Below are positions 8,220 through 28,168 of a DNA stretch of 28,269 bases, piece by piece. The translations under genes and the position numbers were made by a program. Origin of the DNA: a virus. How positions within the stretch are numbered: position 1 is the stretch's first letter; every line of letters starts with the position of its first letter. The stretch is taken from positions 1 to 28,269 of IMG/VR virus record IMGVR_UViG_3300032304_001272. The stretch is one strand, 5' to 3'. The notes under the pieces were generated by a model that saw only the letters and a program-made list of their open reading frames with translations, searched no databases and was not told where the DNA came from.

Positions 8220-8458
8220 ATGAACGTTATATGATTGTTACCTATATCAAAAAACCCAACGGTATGTGGGATGAGGTAACTGAATTCAAAAACAAAATTA
8301 AAACAAAACATATTCAATCTGCTAAAGTTGTTTTAGATTTTAAAGAAAAGAAATGTGTAGTAAACAGCCTTAATCGAGAAGCGAGTTATGAAGATATGAT
8401 TGAATTTTATAAAAGAATGTTGGGGGATCGTTTGACCCCCCACCTCCCTGAAGATTAA
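8216..8458 (+). CDS. Small hypothetical protein
   Basis: The 80-residue product starts with an ATGA overlap on the DUF2452-like gene. It is a short alpha/beta protein (RYMIVTYIKKPNGMWDEV, then a Lys-rich stretch) without recognisable motifs. The pattern could fit a small fold with beta strands up to residue 55 and a C-terminal helix YEDMIEFYKRML. Its 3' end converges on, and overlaps by four bases, the minus-strand phoH-like gene. Function is unknown. Confidence 0.55.
   Translation: MNERYMIVTYIKKPNGMWDEVTEFKNKIKTKHIQSAKVVLDFKEKKCVVNSLNREASYEDMIEFYKRMLGDRLTPHLPED
8422..8440. terminator. Possible bidirectional hairpin at convergent gene ends
   Basis: GGGGG-a-TC, loop GTTT, GA-CCCCC forms a seven-pair stem with one bulged A. 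It lies just before the stop of the plus-strand gene and just beyond the stop of the minus-strand phoH-like gene. No T tract follows on either strand, so it may slow RNA decay or serve as a weak terminator. Confidence 0.35.
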
Positions 8459-10589: not shown

Positions 10590-11219
10590 ATGAGCTTTAC
10601 ATTTAACTTTGATAAAAACCAACTGAAAGAGATGATCCCGCGCAATCCCTATGTGAATCAATGGTACGACGCGATATCAGAGATACTACCGGAATACGGC
10701 ATCAACACTCCACAGCGTGTGGCTGCTTTCTTAGCACAGTGCGCTCACGAAAGCGGTGGGTTTGTATTCTTAAAAGAGAATCTCAACTACAAGGCTCCTA
10801 GTCTAAGAAAAGTATTTCCCAAATACTTTCAAGACGACGCCACAGCAGCAGCCTATGCTAACAAGCCAGAAAAAATTGCCAACAGAGTCTATGCTAACCG
10901 CATGGGTAACGGCGATGAGTCATCAGGCGATGGTTGGCGTTATTGCGGACGTGGATTGATTCAGCTCACAGGCAAAGACAACTATACATTCTTTGCAGCA
11001 TCTCTAGACATACCTGTTGAAGAGGCGGCAGAGTATCTTCAGACATTTGAAGGTGCTGTACAAAGTGCCTGCTTCTTCTGGGAACAGAACAATCTCAACC
11101 AATGGGCAGACAAGGGCGATATCCTTACGCTGACCAAACGCATCAACGGTGGAACCATCGGCCTAGAAGATAGAATCAAACACTACGAACACGCTCTGCA
11201 TATCTTTGGAGCACATTGA
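10590..11219 (+). CDS. GH19 chitinase-fold endolysin
   Basis: The 209-residue protein is a single glycoside hydrolase family 19 domain without signal peptide. Key features are AQCAHESGGF with the likely catalytic Glu at 54, NRMGNGDESSGDGWRY with a second acidic candidate at E110, and the family motif YCGRGLIQLTGKDNY (118-132). GH19 proteins of this length are common phage endolysins that cut the glycan strands of peptidoglycan. It is followed immediately by spanin-like and holin genes, which supports a lysis role. It would need the holin to reach the cell wall. Confidence 0.88.
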   Translation: MSFTFNFDKNQLKEMIPRNPYVNQWYDAISEILPEYGINTPQRVAAFLAQCAHESGGFVFLKENLNYKAPSLRKVFPKYFQDDATAAAYANKPEKIANRVYANRMGNGDESSGDGWRYCGRGLIQLTGKDNYTFFAASLDIPVEEAAEYLQTFEGAVQSACFFWEQNNLNQWADKGDILTLTKRINGGTIGLEDRIKHYEHALHIFGAH

Positions 11220-11689
11220 TCGTGTGGCAATTTCAGTGGATGCTTAGTTTAATCCCCGACAGTTTATTTGTTTGGGTTACCTATATTCTCATGATCCTAG
11301 GAGCTGGGCTATATGTGGCCAGCAAACTGGTCACATGGATTCCTCTAATGCGCCAATACAAACTGCCTGCAGAATTAGTAGGCATTGTGATTTTAATGAT
11401 GGGCATATATGTGTTCGGTGGGTACGGTGTTGAGATGTCGTGGCGAGACAAAGTTCGAGAATTAGAAGAAAAAGTCAAGGCAGCTGAAACTAAGAGCCAA
11501 GAAGTCAAGGTTGAAATACAGAAAAAAATCATATACAAAACCAAGATAGTCAAACAGAAAGAAACCGTGTATGTAGATCGCATCAAAGAAATAGCCAAAG
11601 AAGTAGATGCTAAATGCGAAGTTGATCCTAGAGTTATTGAAGAACTCAACAAGGCATCTGAAGATCCGTTCAAAGGAGATGCTAAATGA
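11216..11689 (+). CDS. Inner-membrane spanin-like protein (Rz-like)
   Basis: The product has about 157 residues. The start is TTG at 11216, overlapping the endolysin stop, or GTG at 11222; neither is certain. Two hydrophobic segments (about 14-38 and 52-70) are followed by a long Lys/Glu-rich coiled coil from WRDKVRELEEKVKAAE to about residue 135 and a C-terminal DPRVIEELNKA. A membrane anchor plus periplasmic coiled coil next to a small lipoprotein gene is the plan of a two-component spanin. Having two membrane segments rather than one is unusual for an i-spanin. The pair would connect and fuse inner and outer membranes after endolysin action. Confidence 0.6.
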   Translation: MIVWQFQWMLSLIPDSLFVWVTYILMILGAGLYVASKLVTWIPLMRQYKLPAELVGIVILMMGIYVFGGYGVEMSWRDKVRELEEKVKAAETKSQEVKVEIQKKIIYKTKIVKQKETVYVDRIKEIAKEVDAKCEVDPRVIEELNKASEDPFKGDAK

Positions 11690-11952
11690 AATATCTAATT
11701 TTAGCATTTGCAGTGTTATTAACAGGATGCAGTACAACTGCTCCTGTGGTAATGAAATTCCCAGAAGTGCCAGAAGCACTGATGCAACAGTGCGACCCGT
11801 TGGACAAAATACCTGCAGATACCAAGCAACTCAGTGTTACTGCTGAAACTGTAATCAAGAACTATGGCAAATATCACGTGTGCAGGATCAAAGTAGAAGA
11901 ATGGCAGGAATGGTACCGAGCTAATAAGAAAATTTACGAATCTGTTAAATAG
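11686..11952 (+). CDS. Outer-membrane lipoprotein spanin (Rz1-like)
   Basis: This 88-residue protein has a lipoprotein signal: MKYLILAFAVLLTGC with lipobox LTGC and Cys15 as the lipidated residue. Pro-rich mature N-terminus (STTAPVVMKFPEVPEAL) and a C-terminal helix ending VEEWQEWYRANKKIYE follow. There are two further cysteines. It overlaps the upstream spanin-like gene by four bases (ATGA), as coupled spanin pairs often do. The likely role is the outer-membrane half of the spanin complex. The presence of an outer-membrane lipoprotein points to a Gram-negative host. Confidence 0.7.
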   Translation: MKYLILAFAVLLTGCSTTAPVVMKFPEVPEALMQQCDPLDKIPADTKQLSVTAETVIKNYGKYHVCRIKVEEWQEWYRANKKIYESVK

Positions 11953-11973
11953 TATTTTAATAAGGAGTGATAG

Positions 11974-12537
11974 ATGAGTGCTGTAGACACAATTCTCAAA
12001 ATGATTACCAAAGAAGCCAAAGACCCAGATGCGCCTAAGCCGCCAGCAGGATCCCGCTCAGAGAGAGAAGCAAAGATCAAAGACAAAGCTGGCATGGTTA
12101 TTTCTGTGTTTGCTCTGCTGTTAGCAGTCAATAGTTGGTACGGTGGTAAGTTATCTAGCACAGTATTAAACAATACCCTGGGTGCTAACAACAAGTGGGC
12201 GCAATATCAAGCCAAGAACGGACGCGGTGTCAGCTACGAAATTGCAGCTAAGACCACTAGTGATCCAAAATTGAAAGCAGAGTTCATGGCAGAGAAAGAA
12301 CGCATGGACAGTGACAAGAAAGAAATCATGGCTGAAGCACGAGCAATGGAAGCGACCCGTGAAGAAGCCAAGAAAGGTAGTCCTTGGATCGGATATGCCA
12401 GCACAGCATATCAACTAGCCATTGTAGTGCTGTCAGCTAGTATCTTAGCTGTGAGCATGCCTATGTTTTGGGGTAGTTTTATCGTAGCCATTGCCGGAGT
12501 ACTTTTAAGTGCTCAAGGTGTATGGTTGTTTATGTAG
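11974..12537 (+). CDS. DUF4337-like membrane protein
   Basis: The 187-residue product has a hydrophobic segment at about 38-56, then NNKWAQYQAKNGRGVSYEIA, a charged helical region (about 98-135), and two more hydrophobic segments at about 147-163 and 167-185. The order TM, 'KWAxYQAK...', charged helix, TM-TM matches the DUF4337 family as I recall it. That family has no assigned function. AAGGAG precedes the ATG. It lies between the spanin-like pair and the holin, which suggests a lysis-linked role such as an accessory membrane protein or antiholin. That is context only. Confidence 0.6.
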   Translation: MSAVDTILKMITKEAKDPDAPKPPAGSRSEREAKIKDKAGMVISVFALLLAVNSWYGGKLSSTVLNNTLGANNKWAQYQAKNGRGVSYEIAAKTTSDPKLKAEFMAEKERMDSDKKEIMAEARAMEATREEAKKGSPWIGYASTAYQLAIVVLSASILAVSMPMFWGSFIVAIAGVLLSAQGVWLFM

Positions 12538-12556
12538 ATTATAATAGGAGCGACAA

Positions 12557-13039
12557 ATGAGCGAAGAAGTCAAAAGCGAAAGCGAAAAGAAAAAAGAAGA
12601 TTGGATGAACAGCAAATGGCGTCCAATGATGGGTTGGATGTATATGGTAGTGTGTATGTTTGACATGATAGTATTTCCGATATTATGGAGTCTATTACAA
12701 ACAGTAACTCACACTCCTATCACTCAATGGAATCCGTTAACACTACAAGGTGCTGGACTATTCCACATCGCGATGGGTGCGGTACTTGGTATTGCAGCAT
12801 TTGGTCGCACACAAGAAAAACTAAATGGAGCAAACAATGGCGGACTCAACACAGCCCCAACAAGCCCACCTGCAACAAGCTTTGGTAGCAGTCCAACAGT
12901 TGGAACAGGATCGTTTGGAACGGCGTCGGCAGCAAGCATTGGCGGAAGCAGCTTTGGAGGCGCACCTAAATCAGCAGCGCCGGCATTCAGCAGCTCAGGT
13001 AAACCCATGCCAGTCCAACCCGAACAACCAGAACTATAA
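12557..13039 (+). CDS. Holin, 3TM GTA-type
   Basis: This 160-residue protein has an N-terminal charged tail, then NSKWRPMMGWMYMVVCMFDM with a hydrophobic run to about residue 48 and a second segment at about 62-82 (LQGAGLFHIAMGAVLGIAAF). GRTQEK closes the conserved part. This matches the 'holin of 3TMs, for gene-transfer release' family. Residues 92-160 are a Gly/Ser/Ala/Pro-rich tail ending QPEQPEL. TAGGAG lies upstream of the ATG. The expected role is to open the inner membrane for the GH19 endolysin. The low-complexity tail region is also open in a second frame (12837-13049), described separately. Confidence 0.75.
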   Translation: MSEEVKSESEKKKEDWMNSKWRPMMGWMYMVVCMFDMIVFPILWSLLQTVTHTPITQWNPLTLQGAGLFHIAMGAVLGIAAFGRTQEKLNGANNGGLNTAPTSPPATSFGSSPTVGTGSFGTASAASIGGSSFGGAPKSAAPAFSSSGKPMPVQPEQPEL

Positions 13040-13049
13040 GGATAAATGA
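12837..13049 (+). CDS. Possible overlapping coiled-coil ORF inside holin 3' end
   Basis: An open frame of 70 residues runs in another frame across the holin's low-complexity tail. Its translation is a Gln/Ala/Glu/Arg-rich amphipathic helix (LQQALVAVQQLEQDRLERRR and onward), and the C-terminus is polar. GGAG lies five bases before the ATG. Its TGA at 13047-13049 overlaps the ATG of the next mini-gene at 13046 (ATGA), the same coupling used by real gene pairs here. Against it, the holin frame ends in a plausible QPEQPEL tail, and Ser/Gly/Ala-rich DNA can give false helical frames. Dual coding is possible, not shown. Confidence 0.3.
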   Translation: MADSTQPQQAHLQQALVAVQQLEQDRLERRRQQALAEAALEAHLNQQRRHSAAQVNPCQSNPNNQNYKDK

Positions 13050-13174
13050 ATATGTTAGATATCGTATTATGGATAGCAGTAGGTGCATTTGTAGGATGGA
13101 ATTTTCCACAGCCCTTCTGGGCCAAGGCCATGCAAGAAAAACTACAGGCCATGTTGGCTAAAAAGGTAGCTTAA
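13046..13174 (+). CDS. Small membrane protein (42 residues)
   Basis: The ATG has AAGGA seven bases upstream in the holin stop region. The 42-residue product MNMLDIVLWIAVGAFVGWNF continues with PQPFWAKAMQEKLQAML and a basic end. It has one hydrophobic segment (residues 4-18) and an amphipathic cytoplasmic-type tail. Position after the holin suggests a lysis-associated small membrane protein, but function is unknown. Confidence 0.5.
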   Translation: MNMLDIVLWIAVGAFVGWNFPQPFWAKAMQEKLQAMLAKKVA

Positions 13175-13175
13175 T

Positions 13176-13226
13176 ATGATTGCACAAGAACCATGTGGCC
13201 AGTGTGGCCATACTCACCCTAAATAA
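13176..13226 (+). CDS. Tiny CxxC peptide (16 residues), tentative
   Basis: ATG at 13176 begins MIAQEPCGQCGHTHPK and stops at 13226. AAAGG lies about nine bases upstream. The CxxCxHxH arrangement could bind a metal ion. An ORF this short may be chance; the well-placed ribosome binding site and the dense Cys/His content are the reasons to list it. Confidence 0.25.
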   Translation: MIAQEPCGQCGHTHPK

Positions 13227-13238
13227 CAAGGAGATACC

Positions 13239-13460
13239 ATGAAACACATTATTCTAGCACTAGGTCTAGCTTTTTCACTTGTAGGCCATAGCTATGCAGC
13301 AGATGCAGCTAAACCAGAGACCAAGAAAGTCTGTGTAGATGCACAAGGCAAAGACGGCAAACCTGTCATTGATCCCAAGACCAAAAAACCCAAACAGAAC
13401 TGCAAAGAAGTCAAAGTGCATAAAAAGCATGAAGGCACAGCAGTTCCTGTAAAAAAATAA
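13239..13460 (+). CDS. Small secreted basic protein
   Basis: The 73-residue protein has a Sec-type signal peptide: Lys2, a hydrophobic core (IILALGLAFSLVG) and likely cleavage after SYA at residue 20. The mature 53 residues are Lys-rich with two cysteines (C32 and C55) that could form a disulfide in the periplasm. AAGGAG precedes the ATG. It is the last gene before a strong terminator and follows the lysis cassette. A periplasmic role late in infection is plausible. No family is recognised. Confidence 0.6.
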   Translation: MKHIILALGLAFSLVGHSYAADAAKPETKKVCVDAQGKDGKPVIDPKTKKPKQNCKEVKVHKKHEGTAVPVKK

Positions 13461-13485
13461 TTCACACAGTAAATCTGCATTAAAT

Positions 13486-13515
13486 AAAAGGACTACTTGA
13501 CGTAGTCCTTTTTTT
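13486..13515 (+). terminator. Strong intrinsic terminator
   Basis: AAAAGGACTAC, loop TTGAC, then GTAGTCCTTTT make an 11-pair stem followed by a run of seven T (13509-13515). It ends the lysis-side gene block. It physically overlaps the -35 element of a sigma70-type promoter. Confidence 0.9.
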
Positions 13516-13525
13516 ATCATATAAT
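13497..13525 (+). promoter_or_regulatory. sigma70-type promoter embedded in terminator
   Basis: TTGACG (13497-13502) lies in the loop and 3' arm of the terminator hairpin; TATAAT lies at 13520-13525, exactly 17 bp away. Five of six -35 bases and all -10 bases match. The predicted start, about seven bases after TATAAT, coincides with the ATG at 13532 of the dnaJ-like gene. Confidence 0.75.
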
Positions 13526-13531
13526 ATAACT

Positions 13532-14374
13532 ATGGATTATTACGCAACTTTAGGTTTAAAAAGAAATGCATCGGATGCTGAAATAAAAAAAGCATATCGA
13601 GGACTAGCTATGAAACATCATCCAGATCGAGGTGGTGATGAAAAGCGATTTAAGGAAATATCACAGGCCTATGATTTTCTCAGTGACCCAGAGAAAAAAC
13701 AGATCATAGATCTAGGTGGTGATCCCAATGCACAACCAGGCATGGGTGGATTTAATCAAGGACCATTTGAATTTCATTTCAATACCGGAAATATCAACGA
13801 CATGTTTGGTAATTTTGGATTTGGTGGCTTTGGCAGACAGCCGCAGAGACGCAATCAATCGCTGTCAGTGAATGTAGAAATAAGCTTAGAAGATGTGTTG
13901 AACGGCAAAGATCTAAATGCGGAAGTTTCAATTCCCGGTAAAGCAAAAATGATCAACATACAGATACCCCCGGGCATAGAACATGGTCAACAAATAAGAT
14001 ACGAAGGAATGGGGGATCATTCTATTACCAATCTCAAACCAGGAGACCTATTGGTAAATGTGTTTGTGAAAGAACACAGTATTTTCAAAAGAGAAAATAC
14101 ATCACTGATACTAGATAAGGAACTTGATGTATGGGATGCTATTCTCGGCACATCTATAGAAATCTTGACCTTAGACAAAAAGACTTTAACTATTACTGTA
14201 CCGCCAGGCACACAACCTGACACAGTACTAAGCTGTCGTGGTGAGGGCTTACCGAATATGCGCACACGTCAGCGAGGCAATCTTTTGATTAAAATCAAAG
14301 TTGTTGTGCCTAGATTACTAAACAGCGATCAAATAGCACTGATTAAAACAATCAAACAAGGAAATGTAAAATGA
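13532..14374 (+). CDS. dnaJ: DnaJ/CbpA-like co-chaperone
   Basis: The 280-residue protein has a J domain (about 1-60, MDYYATLGLKRNASDAEIKK, HPD at 30-32), a Gly/Phe-rich linker (66-103) and two beta-rich substrate-binding domains (about 110-185 and 190-262, with IPPGIEHGQQIRYEGMGDH and VPPGTQPDTVLSCRGEGLP). The CxxCxGxG zinc-finger repeats are absent, so it is class B (CbpA-like). It would recruit host DnaK through the HPD motif. The start has no visible Shine-Dalgarno and lies where transcription is predicted to begin. It is fused in an ATGA overlap to the ClpA-like gene, which suggests one functional unit. Confidence 0.88.
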   Translation: MDYYATLGLKRNASDAEIKKAYRGLAMKHHPDRGGDEKRFKEISQAYDFLSDPEKKQIIDLGGDPNAQPGMGGFNQGPFEFHFNTGNINDMFGNFGFGGFGRQPQRRNQSLSVNVEISLEDVLNGKDLNAEVSIPGKAKMINIQIPPGIEHGQQIRYEGMGDHSITNLKPGDLLVNVFVKEHSIFKRENTSLILDKELDVWDAILGTSIEILTLDKKTLTITVPPGTQPDTVLSCRGEGLPNMRTRQRGNLLIKIKVVVPRLLNSDQIALIKTIKQGNVK

Positions 14375-16722
14375 TCGAACCAAGTCAAAATCTACAAGAA
14401 ATTTTTGAAAAATCCGTAAATGTGGCTAAAGGCCTAGGACATGAGTATATCACCATTGAACACCTCATATTCAGTATCATGGACGACGAGGACTCTTATA
14501 AACTACTAGAAAGTTTTGGTGCTGATGCGGCATTTATTAAAACCAATATAGAACACTATCTAAAAAACAGTCTTAACGATATCAAGATTGCAGGACCTAA
14601 TAACAAACCAAAAAAAACCAATTCTGTTGAACGATTGCTTAATCGCTGTTTTACACAAGTACTATTCAGCGGTAGGCAACGCATGGAGATAGCAGACGTT
14701 ATTGTCAGTGTGCTATCAGAAAAAAATAGTTTCGGTTATTACTTTCTCACCAAAGGCGGTGTGACCAAAGAAAAATTCATAAAGTATTTCCAAGAAAATG
14801 TACAGATCACTGAAGAAGAAACTGTGGAAACTAGAGTAGTGGCATCAAATCAAATAGATCGTATCCTGAATCAATTCTGTACTAATCTCAGTCTCAAAGC
14901 CAAACAACGCAAGATCGATCCAGTTATTGGTCGCGAAGAAGAAATAGAAAAAATACAATTAGTATTAGCTAGAAGAAATAAAAGCAATGTGTTGATGGTA
15001 GGTGATCCCGGTGTTGGTAAGACTGCTATTGCAGAAGGTCTTGCTAAAAAAATCCATGATAAAAAAGTACCTAAATTTATACAAGACCATCAGGTATATA
15101 CGTTAGACATCAGTGCATTATTGGCAGGGTCTAAGTATCGTGGAGATTTTGAAGAACGTGTAAAGGCTGTGTTTGCTGCACTAGAAAAGAAAGGCAAAAT
15201 TATTCTGTTCATTGACGAAGCGCACATGATGCAAGGAGCAGGATCATCCAGTCAAGGCTCTAATGACATGGCAAATATGTTGAAGCCTATGCTGACCAAA
15301 GGGGTGATCAAACTGATTGCATCTACTACTTGGGAAGAATATCGCAAACATTTTGAAAGTGACCGTGCGCTGATGAGACGCTTTCAACGTGTGACCATCG
15401 ATGAGCCTACTGCTGAAATGGCTGTGAAAATTCTCAAAGGACTGAAAAAGTACTACGAATCTCATCATAATGTAAAAATATCAGATGCTGCCATTGATCA
15501 GGCTGTGAAATTAAGTGTGAAATATATGGCTGATAAAAAACTTCCGGACAAGGCCATTGACATTATAGACTGTGCATCGGCAAGATATAAACTCAAAGAT
15601 GACGAGAGCATGGAGGGTGTGGAACAGATCGTAGACATAGAACAGGTCACATACGAACTATCTAAAATGATTAACATGCCTTTGGAAACTGTAACCCAGA
15701 AAGAAAGTAAAAATCTCAGCGATCTTGATCAACAGATGAAGGGAGTGGTATATGGACAGGACAAAGCAGTAGAAGGATTACTAGATAAAATTTTTGTTTC
15801 GCAGGCAGGTATGAAAGCACCTAATAAACCCATAGGCTCATTTCTGTTCCTTGGTCCCACAGGCTGCGGCAAAACTGAAACTGCCAAGCAGCTAGCAGAC
15901 AAGATGGGCATGCAGTTAGTGAGATTTGACATGGGAGAATATCAGGAACAGCATTCTGTAGCTAGATTAATAGGAGCTCCTCCAGGATATGTTGGCTACG
16001 AGGACAATGCAGGTGCACTGATAACTAAACTGCAAGAACATCCTAATTGTATTCTACTACTGGACGAAATAGAAAAAGCTCATCCAAATGTCAGTAATGT
16101 ATTGTTGGCTTTCATGGATAATGGTTTTGTCACTGGATCTAACGGCAAAGTTGCTGATGGACGCAACAGTATACTGATAATGACCAGTAATCTTGGTGCT
16201 GCGGATAACGAACGAAACACTATTGGATTCGGTGATCTAGAACGAGAGGGTGAGGACGACAAGGCTATTAAAAAATATTTCAGTCCAGAATTTCGTAATA
16301 GATTAGACGCAGTAATTAAATTCTCAAAGCTATCCAACGAAACTGTGTTACAGATAGTAAAGAAATTTGTTGCCGATCTTAATACTCAACTCAAGGACAA
16401 AGGCATAGAAATCTTGCTTAATGCCAAAGCTATTAGGTGGTTAGCTGATCGAGGCTATGATAAAAAAATGGGTGCAAGACCGTTGGCAAGATTGATTGAT
16501 CAGGAAATCAAGAGCCCGTTGAGTCGTCGAGTATTGTTTGGGGATCTAGTCGACGGCGGCAGAGTCACTGTTGATGTTGTAGATGATAATCTCAGCTTTA
16601 CTGTGACTGAGATTCCAAAACCGTTGACCAAAGAACAGAAAAAACTTCTTAGAATCAATAGAGCTGCGACAACCAAGGACAGTGAAGATGTTGAAGTACA
16701 AAACCAAATCAACCAGTCGTAA
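14371..16722 (+). CDS. clpA: ClpA-like AAA+ unfoldase
   Basis: This 783-residue protein has a Clp N-domain (EPSQNLQEIFEKSVNVAKGL, then EYITIEHLIFS) and two AAA+ modules. First: Walker A GDPGVGKT at 211-218, Walker B with D282-E283. Second: Walker A GPTGCGKT at 495-502, Walker B LLLDEIE at 562-568. There is no long coiled-coil M domain, which separates it from ClpB. An IGF tripeptide at 618-620 (NTIGFGD) sits just before YFSPEFRNRLDAVI, the position of the ClpP-docking loop (IGL) in ClpA. It therefore should pair with host ClpP; no ClpP gene is seen. It may feed host or phage proteins to proteolysis. Length fits ClpA (758). Confidence 0.88.
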   Translation: MIEPSQNLQEIFEKSVNVAKGLGHEYITIEHLIFSIMDDEDSYKLLESFGADAAFIKTNIEHYLKNSLNDIKIAGPNNKPKKTNSVERLLNRCFTQVLFSGRQRMEIADVIVSVLSEKNSFGYYFLTKGGVTKEKFIKYFQENVQITEEETVETRVVASNQIDRILNQFCTNLSLKAKQRKIDPVIGREEEIEKIQLVLARRNKSNVLMVGDPGVGKTAIAEGLAKKIHDKKVPKFIQDHQVYTLDISALLAGSKYRGDFEERVKAVFAALEKKGKIILFIDEAHMMQGAGSSSQGSNDMANMLKPMLTKGVIKLIASTTWEEYRKHFESDRALMRRFQRVTIDEPTAEMAVKILKGLKKYYESHHNVKISDAAIDQAVKLSVKYMADKKLPDKAIDIIDCASARYKLKDDESMEGVEQIVDIEQVTYELSKMINMPLETVTQKESKNLSDLDQQMKGVVYGQDKAVEGLLDKIFVSQAGMKAPNKPIGSFLFLGPTGCGKTETAKQLADKMGMQLVRFDMGEYQEQHSVARLIGAPPGYVGYEDNAGALITKLQEHPNCILLLDEIEKAHPNVSNVLLAFMDNGFVTGSNGKVADGRNSILIMTSNLGAADNERNTIGFGDLEREGEDDKAIKKYFSPEFRNRLDAVIKFSKLSNETVLQIVKKFVADLNTQLKDKGIEILLNAKAIRWLADRGYDKKMGARPLARLIDQEIKSPLSRRVLFGDLVDGGRVTVDVVDDNLSFTVTEIPKPLTKEQKKLLRINRAATTKDSEDVEVQNQINQS

Positions 16723-17365
16723 ATTCTATAAAAAATGGGTATATAAAATCGGTCTCAAAATCGAAGGCTGTGTTATTCTACGAGGTCGTCCTATAAGTAC
16801 CGTGAAATCTGTGTTTGGTCAAGACATGGATGAAAAAGTATTTTATCCTCAATGGCGGAATAGATCTTACGTAGATCGACAAGGCATTATTCGATTCTGT
16901 GATTTTATGGAAAAATTTCCTACAGACAGCTATGCTGTGAGAATAGAAGATAATAGATTAGATGTGTATACAAATGATCAAGATCTGTACGAAACGCTGT
17001 CGTTGACCTGTGAAGAAAACATCATTCACAGATTCTATCCAGATACAGATGATCTACGCCTATTAAACAGTTCACCGCATGTAATTGTTGTTAATAAACT
17101 TCCTAAAAATAGATATAATTATAGGGTGTATTTGCTGCCCCACAAGATGATCAGAGAAGATAAAAACAAATACATAGATTGGATCAAAGCACAGGATTCT
17201 AGAATAACATGTACTCCTGCTCTAGAAAGATGGTTTTACGCTACTGATTGGAACTGGGATCGAAGATATGTGTTAGTTGAAGATGAAGCCACTGTGTTAA
17301 TGATGAAACTGCGCAACGCTGAGGTTGTTGGCACAGTATATAAGTTTGTGATCAGCGATAAATAA
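16688..17365 (+). CDS. Hypothetical protein
   Basis: The product has 225 residues. The ATG at 16688 is preferred over a GTG at 16682 because AAGGA lies about eight bases upstream. It overlaps the clpA-like gene by 35 bases. The N-terminus is very basic (MLKYKTKSTSRKFYKKWVYK), and the remainder is alpha/beta with many aromatic residues (FYPQWRNRSYVDRQG, ERWFYATDWNWDRRYVLVED). No membrane segment or enzyme motif is recognised. Its co-transcription with dnaJ and clpA suggests early expression; it could be an adaptor or an unrelated rider gene. Confidence 0.6.
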   Translation: MLKYKTKSTSRKFYKKWVYKIGLKIEGCVILRGRPISTVKSVFGQDMDEKVFYPQWRNRSYVDRQGIIRFCDFMEKFPTDSYAVRIEDNRLDVYTNDQDLYETLSLTCEENIIHRFYPDTDDLRLLNSSPHVIVVNKLPKNRYNYRVYLLPHKMIREDKNKYIDWIKAQDSRITCTPALERWFYATDWNWDRRYVLVEDEATVLMMKLRNAEVVGTVYKFVISDK

Positions 17366-17368
17366 CAG

Positions 17369-17734
17369 ATGAGCAGAGAAACCATTGTAATACTGTCAAA
17401 TATAGCCGACGATAGTCAGCCTTCTACATGGCAGTATAGTAACAAACATATAGGCGCAGGCTACTATAAGAACGGCAATGGCGTTCATACTATGACCTTT
17501 GAGCTTAATGATTTCAAAGGCAGTATTAAAGTACAGGCTACTCTAGACCTAAATCCTGGAGTCAACGACTGGTTTGATGTAGTATACGATTCTGCAGATG
17601 TGAATCTCACAGCTCTTGACAGCACCCCGCTTAACTCTAACGCAGCCTGCACATTTACAGGCAAATTTGTGTTTATACGTGTGGCCTATCAGTTAGAACA
17701 AGGCACAATCACCGAAATCCGGTATAATCAGTAA
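17369..17734 (+). CDS. Small beta-rich hypothetical protein
   Basis: This protein has 121 residues. The ATG lies five bases after the previous stop. The sequence is beta-rich, with MTFELNDFKGSIKVQATLDL and FTGKFVFIRVAYQLEQGTI, like a jelly-roll or fibre-associated domain. There is no signal peptide or cysteine pair. It could be a virion surface protein or a ligand-binding domain; function is unknown. It is the last gene before a late-promoter-like motif. Confidence 0.55.
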   Translation: MSRETIVILSNIADDSQPSTWQYSNKHIGAGYYKNGNGVHTMTFELNDFKGSIKVQATLDLNPGVNDWFDVVYDSADVNLTALDSTPLNSNAACTFTGKFVFIRVAYQLEQGTITEIRYNQ

Positions 17735-24818: not shown

Positions 24819-24850
24819 AAAAGCCAGTCATAGGTTGACTGGCTTTTTTT
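24819..24850 (+). terminator. Strong intrinsic terminator
   Basis: AAAAGCCAGTCA, loop TAGGT, TGACTGGCTTTT make a 12-pair stem followed by a run of seven T (24844-24850). It ends the 17779-24801 block and overlaps a sigma70-type promoter. Confidence 0.92.
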
Positions 24851-24863
24851 ATGACTATATAAT
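24835..24863 (+). promoter_or_regulatory. sigma70-type promoter embedded in terminator
   Basis: TTGACT (24835-24840) is in the loop and 3' arm of the hairpin; TATAAT is at 24858-24863, exactly 17 bp away with the T tract in the spacer. All -10 and five -35 bases match. It would start transcription near 24870, just before the ribosome binding site GGAGAG of the dsbA-like gene. Same design as at 13497-13525. Confidence 0.8.
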
Positions 24864-24883: not shown

Positions 24884-25144
24884 ATGACTAAAATGTACGG
24901 GCCTGAAGAAAAAGCCAAATTAGAAAGATTGATCAACGAAGGATCAAATGTACTTCGTGAAGTAGAAGATCTACAAGAAGGCCTAAAAGAAACTGTAAAA
25001 GCTGTCGCTGAAGAACTACAGGTCAAACCCAGTATCATTAACAAAGCCATCCGTATTGCACACAAAGACAATTGGAAAGATCACGAAGCTGAGTGGAACG
25101 AAATCGAAATGATTCTCGGAGTCACGAAACGCTTGCCCGAATGA
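24884..25144 (+). CDS. dsbA: DsbA-like dsDNA-binding / late transcription protein
   Basis: This 86-residue protein is helical and reads MTKMYGPEEKAKLERLINEG, then ...QVKPSIINKAIRIAHKDNWKD and HEAEWNEIEMIL. The end matches T4 DsbA (HKDNRDVFEAETEEV) in position and composition, and the length is near that of T4 DsbA (about 89). T4 DsbA is a small double-stranded DNA-binding protein associated with late promoters. A strong ribosome binding site (TAGGAGAG) precedes the ATG. It is the first gene after a sigma70-type promoter, so it is likely expressed early. The assignment relies on the C-terminal match from memory. Confidence 0.7.
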   Translation: MTKMYGPEEKAKLERLINEGSNVLREVEDLQEGLKETVKAVAEELQVKPSIINKAIRIAHKDNWKDHEAEWNEIEMILGVTKRLPE

Positions 25145-25498: not shown

Positions 25499-28168
25499 AT
25501 GAGTTTCGTGGACGCATACTACGATCGCGACGATGACATGATACGTGTCGTTGAGCGTGATGACAAAGGGCAGAGACATTTCAAAGACTACGCTGCCAGG
25601 CATATATTCTACTACAACGACCCCAAAGGCAAGTTCCAATCCATCAAAGGTGAACCCCTTAGTCGTGTAAGTTCAAAAAATGTCAAAGAACATCGCAAAG
25701 AACTTGCTATACATTCAAACAAAAGACTCTACGAGTCAGACATCAATCCCATATACAGATGTCTAGAAGATCATTATCTCAATCAAGATGCTCCAAAACT
25801 GAATGTAGCATTTTTTGACATTGAGGTAGACTTTGATCCAGAGCGTGGCTATGCATCACCCGATGATGCATTTATGCCAATTACTGCCATTGCTGTGTAT
25901 CTACAATGGATGCAGACAATGGTATGTTTGGCTATTCCTCCTAAAACACTGAGTATGGAGGAAGCAATCAAGGCAGTCGCAGAATTTCCAAATACCATGC
26001 TGTTTGATAATGAAGCAGACATGTTAAATACTTTCTTGGATCTAATACAAGAGTCGGATGTGCTAAGTGGATGGAACTCAGAAGGCTTTGATATTCCATA
26101 TACTGTTAATCGTGTTACCAAAGTTCTCAGCAAAGAGGATACTAGACGTTTTTGTCTATGGGATTGTTTTCCCAAGAAACGTGAATATGAAAAGTTTGGT
26201 AAAACTGCTACCACGTATGATTTCATAGGTCGTGTTCATATCGATAGTCTAGAATTATATCGCAAGTACACATACGAAGAACGGCATACCTATCGATTAG
26301 ATGCTATTGCTGAATACGAATTAGGTGAGCGTAAAACACAATACGAAGGCACGTTGGATCAATTATACAATAATGACTTCAAGACATTCATTGAATATAA
26401 CATCAATGACTGTATGCTTCTCGAGAAGCTCGATAGGAAATTAAAATTTATCGACTTAGCCAATACAATTGCACACGAAAACACAGTGCTGTTAGCAACT
26501 ACCATGGGTGCAGTAGCAGTGACTGAACAGGCTATTATAAACGAAGCTCATCGAAGAGGTATGATAGTTCCTAATCGTAAAAAGATGGAAGAACATGGCG
26601 ACACACAGGCAGCAGGAGCATATGTAGCATATCCCAAGAAAGGTATCCATGAGTGGATTGGCTCATTAGATATTAACAGTCTTTATCCTAGTGCGATCCG
26701 TGCGCTGAATATGGGTCCCGAGACTATTGTAGGACAACTACGTCAAGATGGAACCAAAGACTTTGTTGCTGCAGAAATGGCCAAAGGAAAATCATTTGCG
26801 TCAGCTTGGGAAGGCATTTTTGGTAGTCTTGAATATTCCGCAGTGATGAACAAAGAAGTAGGGCGTGAGATCAATATCGACTGGGAGGGTGGTGGCTCAG
26901 ATAATCTAAGTGCTGCTCAAGTATACGATCTTATTTTTGAAAGTAATCAACCCTGGGTGCTGAGTGCAAATGGTACTATATTCACTTATGAAAACGAAGG
27001 TGTGATATCAGGACTTTTAGCTCGTTGGTACAAAGAACGTAAAGAAATGCAGGCCAAACTGCGAGAATGTATCCAAGCCGGTAACAAGATTGAAGAAGAA
27101 TACTGGGATAAGCGACAACTGGTCAAGAAGATTCTACTAAACAGTCTATATGGTGCGATTTTAAATCCGGGCTGTAGATTCTTTGATAACAGGATCGGAC
27201 AATCGACTACACTAACCGGTCGACAAATTGCCAAACACATGGCATCAAAAGTTAACGAAATTATCACCGGTGAATATGACCATGTAGGCAAAGCGGTCAT
27301 ATACGGTGACACAGACTCTTGTTATTTTTCAGCGTATGCTACCCTGAAAAAAGACATTGAGAAAGGATTGATTCCCTGGAACAGAGAATCAGTAGTTGAG
27401 CTTTATGATACCATAGGAGAAACTGTAAATGGCACATTTGTCAAATTCATGCAGGACGCATTTCATGTCCCTCGAACCAGAGCTGAGGTCATCAAAGCAG
27501 GTCGCGAAATTGTTGCAAGCAAAGGACTGTTCATCACTAAAAAGAGATACGCAGTACTCTACTACGACAAAGAAGGCAAACGTTCCGATACAGAAGGCAA
27601 ACCAGGCAAGATCAAAGCCATGGGTCTTGACCTCAAGCGTTCAGATACCCCGGTTGTTATACAAGACTTCTTGAGTGAGGTACTGACTAAAACACTGACC
27701 GGTGTGACCAAAGAAGAGATACTACAATACATTACTGATTTCCGCACAGAGTTTAAAACTCGACCAGGTTGGGAAAAAGGTAGCCCTAAACGTGCTAACA
27801 ATATCACAGAGTACGCTGCCAAAGAAAAGAAAGCAGGTAAGACTAACATGCCTGGTCATGTCAGAGCTTCATTGAATTGGAACACTTTGAAGCGTATGAT
27901 GGATGACAAATACTCAATGCAGGTAGTAGATGGCATGAAAGTAATTGTATGCAAGATCAAAGACAATCCTATGGGATATACTTCTGTAGCCTATCCTGTG
28001 GATGAACTGAGATTACCGCAGTGGTTCAAAGATCTGCCTTTCAATGATGCAGAAATGGAAATCACTGTGATAGATGAGAAGTTAGAAAACCTTATTGGTG
28101 TTTTGGAATGGGACATTAGTTCAACAAGGTCGGATAATACATTCAACAAACTGTTTGATTTTGAGTGA
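25499..28168 (+). CDS. 43: DNA polymerase (T4 gp43-like, family B)
   Basis: The 889-residue family B polymerase has complete active sites. Exonuclease: Exo I AFFDIEVDFDP with D107/E109, Exo II GWNSEGFD (191-198), Exo III YNINDCMLL (300-308, D304). Polymerase: motif A DINSLYPSA (from D391), motif B ILLNSLYGA (N548 to G552), motif C YGDTDSCYF (D604 and D606), and TKKRYAVLYYD (KKRY) after it. The C-terminus NTFNKLFDFE could be a clamp-binding tail. It is slightly shorter than T4 gp43 (898). TAGGAGAAC precedes the ATG. It would replicate the phage genome with gp44 and a clamp. All key residues are present. Confidence 0.96.
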   Translation: MSFVDAYYDRDDDMIRVVERDDKGQRHFKDYAARHIFYYNDPKGKFQSIKGEPLSRVSSKNVKEHRKELAIHSNKRLYESDINPIYRCLEDHYLNQDAPKLNVAFFDIEVDFDPERGYASPDDAFMPITAIAVYLQWMQTMVCLAIPPKTLSMEEAIKAVAEFPNTMLFDNEADMLNTFLDLIQESDVLSGWNSEGFDIPYTVNRVTKVLSKEDTRRFCLWDCFPKKREYEKFGKTATTYDFIGRVHIDSLELYRKYTYEERHTYRLDAIAEYELGERKTQYEGTLDQLYNNDFKTFIEYNINDCMLLEKLDRKLKFIDLANTIAHENTVLLATTMGAVAVTEQAIINEAHRRGMIVPNRKKMEEHGDTQAAGAYVAYPKKGIHEWIGSLDINSLYPSAIRALNMGPETIVGQLRQDGTKDFVAAEMAKGKSFASAWEGIFGSLEYSAVMNKEVGREINIDWEGGGSDNLSAAQVYDLIFESNQPWVLSANGTIFTYENEGVISGLLARWYKERKEMQAKLRECIQAGNKIEEEYWDKRQLVKKILLNSLYGAILNPGCRFFDNRIGQSTTLTGRQIAKHMASKVNEIITGEYDHVGKAVIYGDTDSCYFSAYATLKKDIEKGLIPWNRESVVELYDTIGETVNGTFVKFMQDAFHVPRTRAEVIKAGREIVASKGLFITKKRYAVLYYDKEGKRSDTEGKPGKIKAMGLDLKRSDTPVVIQDFLSEVLTKTLTGVTKEEILQYITDFRTEFKTRPGWEKGSPKRANNITEYAAKEKKAGKTNMPGHVRASLNWNTLKRMMDDKYSMQVVDGMKVIVCKIKDNPMGYTSVAYPVDELRLPQWFKDLPFNDAEMEITVIDEKLENLIGVLEWDISSTRSDNTFNKLFDFE

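Follow-up and report, generated by a model that had tools for sequence, protein, structure and literature searches.

Can one and the same stretch of 40 bases end the transcript of one gene block and begin that of the next? The question is raised by positions 13486–13525 of the window, as we call the whole analysed stretch of 28,269 nucleotides from an IMG/VR virus record, for which a sequence-only reading had proposed a terminator and a promoter fused into a single element that closes a lysis block and opens dnaJ-clpA. The window belongs to an uncultured giant T4-like phage, with families of gp43 (polymerase), gp44 (clamp loader), DsbA, PhoH and baseplate wedge proteins being found in it, and the closest named polymerases are those of the giant phages Phosso (49%), Atu_ph07 (46%) and 121Q (43%). 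Family and sequence comparison identified virion structural, endolysin and holin-like genes upstream of the element. The block at 10590–13460 (+ strand) includes the endolysin (10590–11219), a DUF4337 gene (11974–12537), a holin-like gene (12557–13039) and a small ORF (13239–13460), all on the + strand. The name lysis block is thus fairly right, with virion structural genes to be added to it. Inside this block TAAATA, the central motif of T4 late promoters, is matched at 11946 and 13220. After a gap of 71 bp behind the small ORF follows dnaJ (13532–14374, + strand), an ORF of 280 aa with the Pfam domains DnaJ and DnaJ_C, and then a gene for a clpA-like ATP-dependent protease ATPase of 783 aa (14371–16722, + strand).

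Reading the letters of the element directly, we found every part that had been claimed for it. The hairpin AAAAGGACTAC-TTGAC-GTAGTCCTTTT at 13486–13512 (+ strand) consists of 11 pairs and a 5-base loop with a folding energy of -13.5 kcal/mol, and the T7 tract (13509–13515) shares the last stem pairs, so that three T stand beyond the 11-pair stem. The -35 box TTGACG (13497–13502) is made up of the hairpin loop and part of the 3' arm, the -10 box TATAAT (13520–13525) lies 17 bp further downstream and 6 nt 5' of the dnaJ ATG, and the T tract between the two boxes forms part of the spacer. The same layout is present in a second copy at 24819–24863, as had also been stated, with a hairpin of 12 pairs and -17.4 kcal/mol (24819–24847), the -35 box TTGACT (24835–24840), which spans the end of the loop and part of the 3' arm, and the -10 box TATAAT (24858–24863), all on the + strand. 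The stems of element 1 and element 2 have no sequence in common. Element 2 is followed by the gene for a dsbA-like transcription regulator (24884–25144, + strand), whose leader carries a normal Shine–Dalgarno sequence, by a 112-aa ORF and by the gp43 DNA polymerase gene (25499–28168, + strand).

From these data and those described below we regard each element as a putative composite of an intrinsic terminator and a sigma70-type early promoter, a cassette similar to the PeSLs of other T4-like phages, and we put the probability of this reading at roughly 85%. One piece of DNA could serve both roles because the loop and 3' arm contain the -35 box and the 17-bp spacer takes in the T tract. Most likely, transcripts of the late block stop at element 1 and those of the dnaJ-clpA operon begin there by means of the host sigma70 polymerase: RNA coming from the upstream structural and lysis genes would fold into the hairpin and come free at the T tract, and on the same DNA the sigma70 form of the host RNA polymerase would begin a new transcript. 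Initiation at element 2 would give a short leader with a Shine–Dalgarno sequence for dsbA-gp43. Such a fusion would shield an early operon against transcripts arriving from upstream while taking up hardly any DNA.

Taken on its own, the promoter match is weak evidence and was set aside, since 45 promoter-like sites were observed in 20 kb vs 47.4 expected by chance, even if elements 1 and 2 rank as the top two. With the total at chance level, what is exceptional is the coincidence of the features, and a promoter match as such is not. No + strand terminators of the window other than those in the two elements pass a cut of -7 kcal/mol. Counting as a composite any terminator that carries an 11-of-12 promoter in the overlapped register, we obtained none when the window was shuffled 200 times by dinucleotides and none when a 281-kb relative was shuffled 20 times, vs 2 observed in each of them. 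In this relative the 2 are the counterparts of both sigma70 composites, and nothing else of the kind was convincing there; a weak candidate at its position 38692 (TTGGCA/AAGAAT) was judged to be due to chance. A search against Rfam matched nothing in the window. The sole other strong terminator of the window, the hairpin TGGGGGGTCAAACGATCCCCCA at 8421–8442 on the - strand, is located directly after phoH.

DnaJ relatives are encoded at 32 IMG/VR loci, for 31 of which the sequence preceding dnaJ was inspected. Hairpin, T tract, TTGAC, -10 box and N6-ATG are all retained in 27 of the 31, the -10 box of these 27 being TATAAT or, in four cases, TATACT, and its distance to the dnaJ ATG is exactly 6 nt in nearly all relatives. 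Aligned as ten variants, of which nine carry TTGAC, the sequences show the top of the stem changing from CTAC/GTAG to CTG/CAG via G-U forms around a loop that is almost invariant, an outer pair changing from A-U to U-A and the T tract following directly 3' of the stem in every variant. Five alignment cells were changed on both sides vs 1.8 in shuffles and 95% of the cells are paired, a modest covariation obtained from ten variants of related sequences. For element 2 a double change from A-U to G-C was found in two variants, the covariation there being that of one pair in two sequences. At one locus (L020, in G009) both TTGAC and TATAAT are lost and a perfect hairpin of -14.0 kcal/mol is retained. 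Since this hairpin has outlasted both promoter boxes, it appears to be kept for its own sake, and terminator and promoter seem to be separable by evolution. What speaks against the composite reading is that L029 and L033/L034, the relatives furthest removed, have no hairpin 5' of dnaJ. The contig of L034 (G014) carries a third composite on its - strand (L058:521–549) with TATAAT-N6-ATG, and the gene behind it looks like an endonuclease III relative, judging from its translation.

Both elements are single-copy and fixed, one 5' of dnaJ-clpA and the other 5' of dsbA-gp43, with the same gene order in all contigs spanning them. The small genes directly 5' of element 1 vary among the relatives and its 3' side is constant. 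The proposal that conservation concerns the design rather than the sequence therefore holds between the two copies and between different viruses, but not within each locus, where the sequence is conserved as well. The sequence-only reading had also staked its claim on further instances in relatives, and these do exist.

In order to see how widespread the design is, we scanned IMG/VR viral contigs for TTGAC-N7-T6-N5-TATAAT and obtained at least 120 stretches, with 116 distinct matches among those listed. Among these listed matches, the hairpin rule found a hairpin ending at the T tract in 83 of the 116 (72%) and missed about nine further, nested ones. With TTCAG in place of TTGAC a hairpin was found in 1 of 54 listed matches (2%), and with TAATAT in place of the -10 box in 27 of 92, the latter control being imperfect as four of its six positions are still promoter-like. 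The stems are unrelated among the matches listed and the loop is mostly TTGAC or CTTGACA; several of the listed carriers are T4-like by their gp43. A cyanomyovirus composite (L149, L164, L167, L200, L267 and others) has the nested form GAGGGGC-AA-CTGG-CAAAAT-CCAG-TTGAC-GCCCCTC-T6 and is located before the gp43 operon; its CTGGCAAAATCCAG recurs in many contigs and similar DNA is present in 262 records of named Synechococcus phages and their relatives. It resembles element 2 in having the -35 box in the hairpin, the T tract in the spacer and the gp43 operon downstream, and differs from it by the nested hairpin with CTGGCAAAATCCAG and by a different first gene. The fused terminator-promoter might thus be a common solution that environmental phages have built on unrelated stems, and more than a family of repeats confined to a few T4-like genomes.

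A fused terminator-promoter is already known in some T4-like phages under the name PeSL. PeSLs (promoter-early stem-loops) were reportedly described by Arbiol et al. in 2010, and Comeau et al. are said to have treated them in 2014 as 'Composite conserved promoter-terminator motifs' of T4-like phages, reportedly with nt-1 and KVP40 as the phage pair. In the genomes of these two Vibrio phages we found seven forward GGGTTGAC-N4-GTCARCCC hairpins each, followed by a T-rich run and a TATTAT-like -10 box in the same register as in the window; in the example AAAAGGGTTGACAGATGTCAGCCCTTTTTTGTATTAT the -35 box is within the hairpin and the T-rich run within the spacer. The design of a small sigma70-like early promoter joined to a terminator stem-loop is therefore shared. 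The predicted promoters of the window, TTGACG/T-17-TATAAT, agree in 11 of 12 positions, each is fused with a conserved hairpin that encloses the -35 box and that in element 1 ends in the T7 tract, the phage is T4-like and the register is that of nt-1 and KVP40. Unlike the PeSLs of these two phages, whose seven forward copies per genome form one sequence family carrying TTGAC in the 5' arm, the window elements are two single copies with unrelated stems and with TTGAC in the loop or 3' arm, located at fixed core loci and, in element 1, with the -10 box positioned for a predicted leaderless dnaJ. Elements 1 and 2 are not members of a repeated family in hyperplastic regions mediating shuffling, and as each occurs once, is unrelated to the other and keeps its place in a syntenic context, they are better described as a PeSL-like variant than as plain PeSLs. 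RB49 is similar in that a terminator is followed closely by an early promoter in tandem (11 cases), but there the promoter mostly lies past the T tract, its TTGACA being some 17 nt further down, and is clear of the stem. With the features of both functions conserved in relatives and the same arrangement present in KVP40, nt-1 and more than 100 viral contig stretches, the fused reading is well supported, and what goes beyond it here is the predicted leaderless start of dnaJ, the TAAATA 5' of hairpin 1 and the recurrence in metagenomes. On the reverse strand the PeSLs of KVP40 (L109–L121) and nt-1 (L123–L135) also form a T-tailed hairpin, with CTGAC replacing TTGAC, and may in addition stop converging transcription.

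Whether the overlap is of any use is a separate matter. Terminator and promoter could be ordinary neighbours pushed into each other by scarce intergenic space, with no benefit from the fusion. The gap of 71 bp and the tandem arrangement in RB49, where promoters stand just past terminators, agree with this idea, but we consider it rather doubtful as the overlapped register recurs on unrelated stems in many viruses and the hairpin disappears from the listed matches once the -35 box is changed (the 1 of 54 mentioned above). If instead the composite is functional as such, the overlap may be useful in that polymerase does not leave the DNA after letting go of its transcript and can restart at nearby promoters, as observed in vitro (PMC6978380). 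Polymerase released at the terminator might then restart immediately at the fused promoter, and the element would be a natural test bed for such a restart, so far seen in vitro.

Two further explanations have much less in their favour. PeSLs of T4-like phages are described as modular shuffling sites (cited in PMC4503421), and a mobile recombination cassette that chiefly shuffles genes would fit the variable small genes just 5' of element 1 next to a constant 3' side. With two copies only in the 281-kb relative, both at fixed places in full synteny and with unrelated stems, this role is improbable for the window elements. The overlap of the stem with the -35 box would also be expected from a hairpin that regulates the promoter as an RNA or DNA structure, an operator or cruciform for example, and is no terminator at all. 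This is the least probable of the explanations considered and a very improbable one, as the T tract follows the stem directly in all variants and the hairpin of L020 in G009 has been kept where the promoter is lost.

In the usual sigma70 geometry, transcription starts at the seventh base after TATAAT. For element 1 this base is the A of the dnaJ ATG (13532), and the dnaJ-clpA mRNA is therefore predicted to be leaderless. Consistent with this, dnaJ has no Shine–Dalgarno sequence and no earlier in-frame start, and its J-domain begins at residue 2, so that the dnaJ message is probably made from element 1 without a leader. Late genes seem to follow a similar scheme. TAAATA is located 4–6 bases before an ATG 21 times in G005 (L065–L079) and 16 times in G009 (L035–L044), and never before the genes of T4, RB49, KVP40 and nt-1, while other TAAATA-ATG spacings below 20 occur at background level only. 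Many of the genes with TAAATA-N4–6-ATG are structural, with tail tube, head-tail adaptor and baseplate wedge proteins among their products. When such late starts were counted against a control in Phosso, Atu_ph07 and 121Q, they were not clearly more frequent (3 vs 2, 15 vs 9 and 6 vs 11, respectively), and the closest named giant phages thus do not share the trait as a rule. We infer from the spacing of these motifs that the clade makes leaderless late mRNAs in addition to a leaderless early dnaJ mRNA. This points to leaderless mRNAs as a regular trait of one giant T4-like clade, which, if true, would make special demands on the host ribosomes.

The T4-type late promoter is a TATAAATA-like motif recognised by gp55, and a minimal match to it, TAAATA at 13481–13486 (+ strand), adjoins the 5' end of hairpin 1. 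As a tentative extension of the composite reading, and not as an alternative to it, this TAAATA could act as a late promoter too. Late RNA would then be initiated near position 13492 and miss six of the eleven bases in the 5' arm, which reduces the hairpin to -3.1 vs -13.5 kcal/mol, so that this RNA would pass without meeting a terminator and read into dnaJ-clpA, and terminator 1 would act solely on RNA coming in from upstream. TAAATA is invariant in all ten variants despite changing flanks and a changing distance to the stem (two have an extra base), and it is retained in G009 as well, where the sigma70 boxes are lost. It stands at this place in 7 of 7 copies of element 1 in the terminator set and in 2 of about 309 other distinct terminators, with a chance of about 0.4% per site, and the other intergenic TAAATA of the window stand before genes. 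Against a late promoter speak the A-rich 5' flank of terminators, which favours such matches, the 40-nt leader without a Shine–Dalgarno sequence that RNA from 13492 would carry, and element 2, upstream of which we looked for a late-promoter match and found none. A precedent is given by T4 gene e, where a late promoter and an inhibitory hairpin share one start region (PMC3014915). There, too, a late promoter at a hairpin lets the late RNA differ in structure from RNA reading through from upstream, but at gene e it is translation that is controlled, whereas at element 1, if the effect is real, it would be termination. It might even be, although we hold this to be slightly more doubtful still, that some 50 bases form a three-way switch of a late promoter escaping the terminator, the terminator itself and an early promoter for leaderless dnaJ-clpA, in a clade with widespread leaderless late structural mRNAs.

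A strong terminator with TAAATA close behind it and then an ATG was found at L067:5531–5559 and L067:604–627 in G005 (- strand) and at L040:12252, L042:8468 and L042:12691 in G009, and these units could be the late-promoter counterpart of the composite. In the window itself, GATAAATAACAG-ATG at 17359–17371, downstream of dnaJ-clpA, is a predicted leaderless late start of a 121-aa ORF at 17369.
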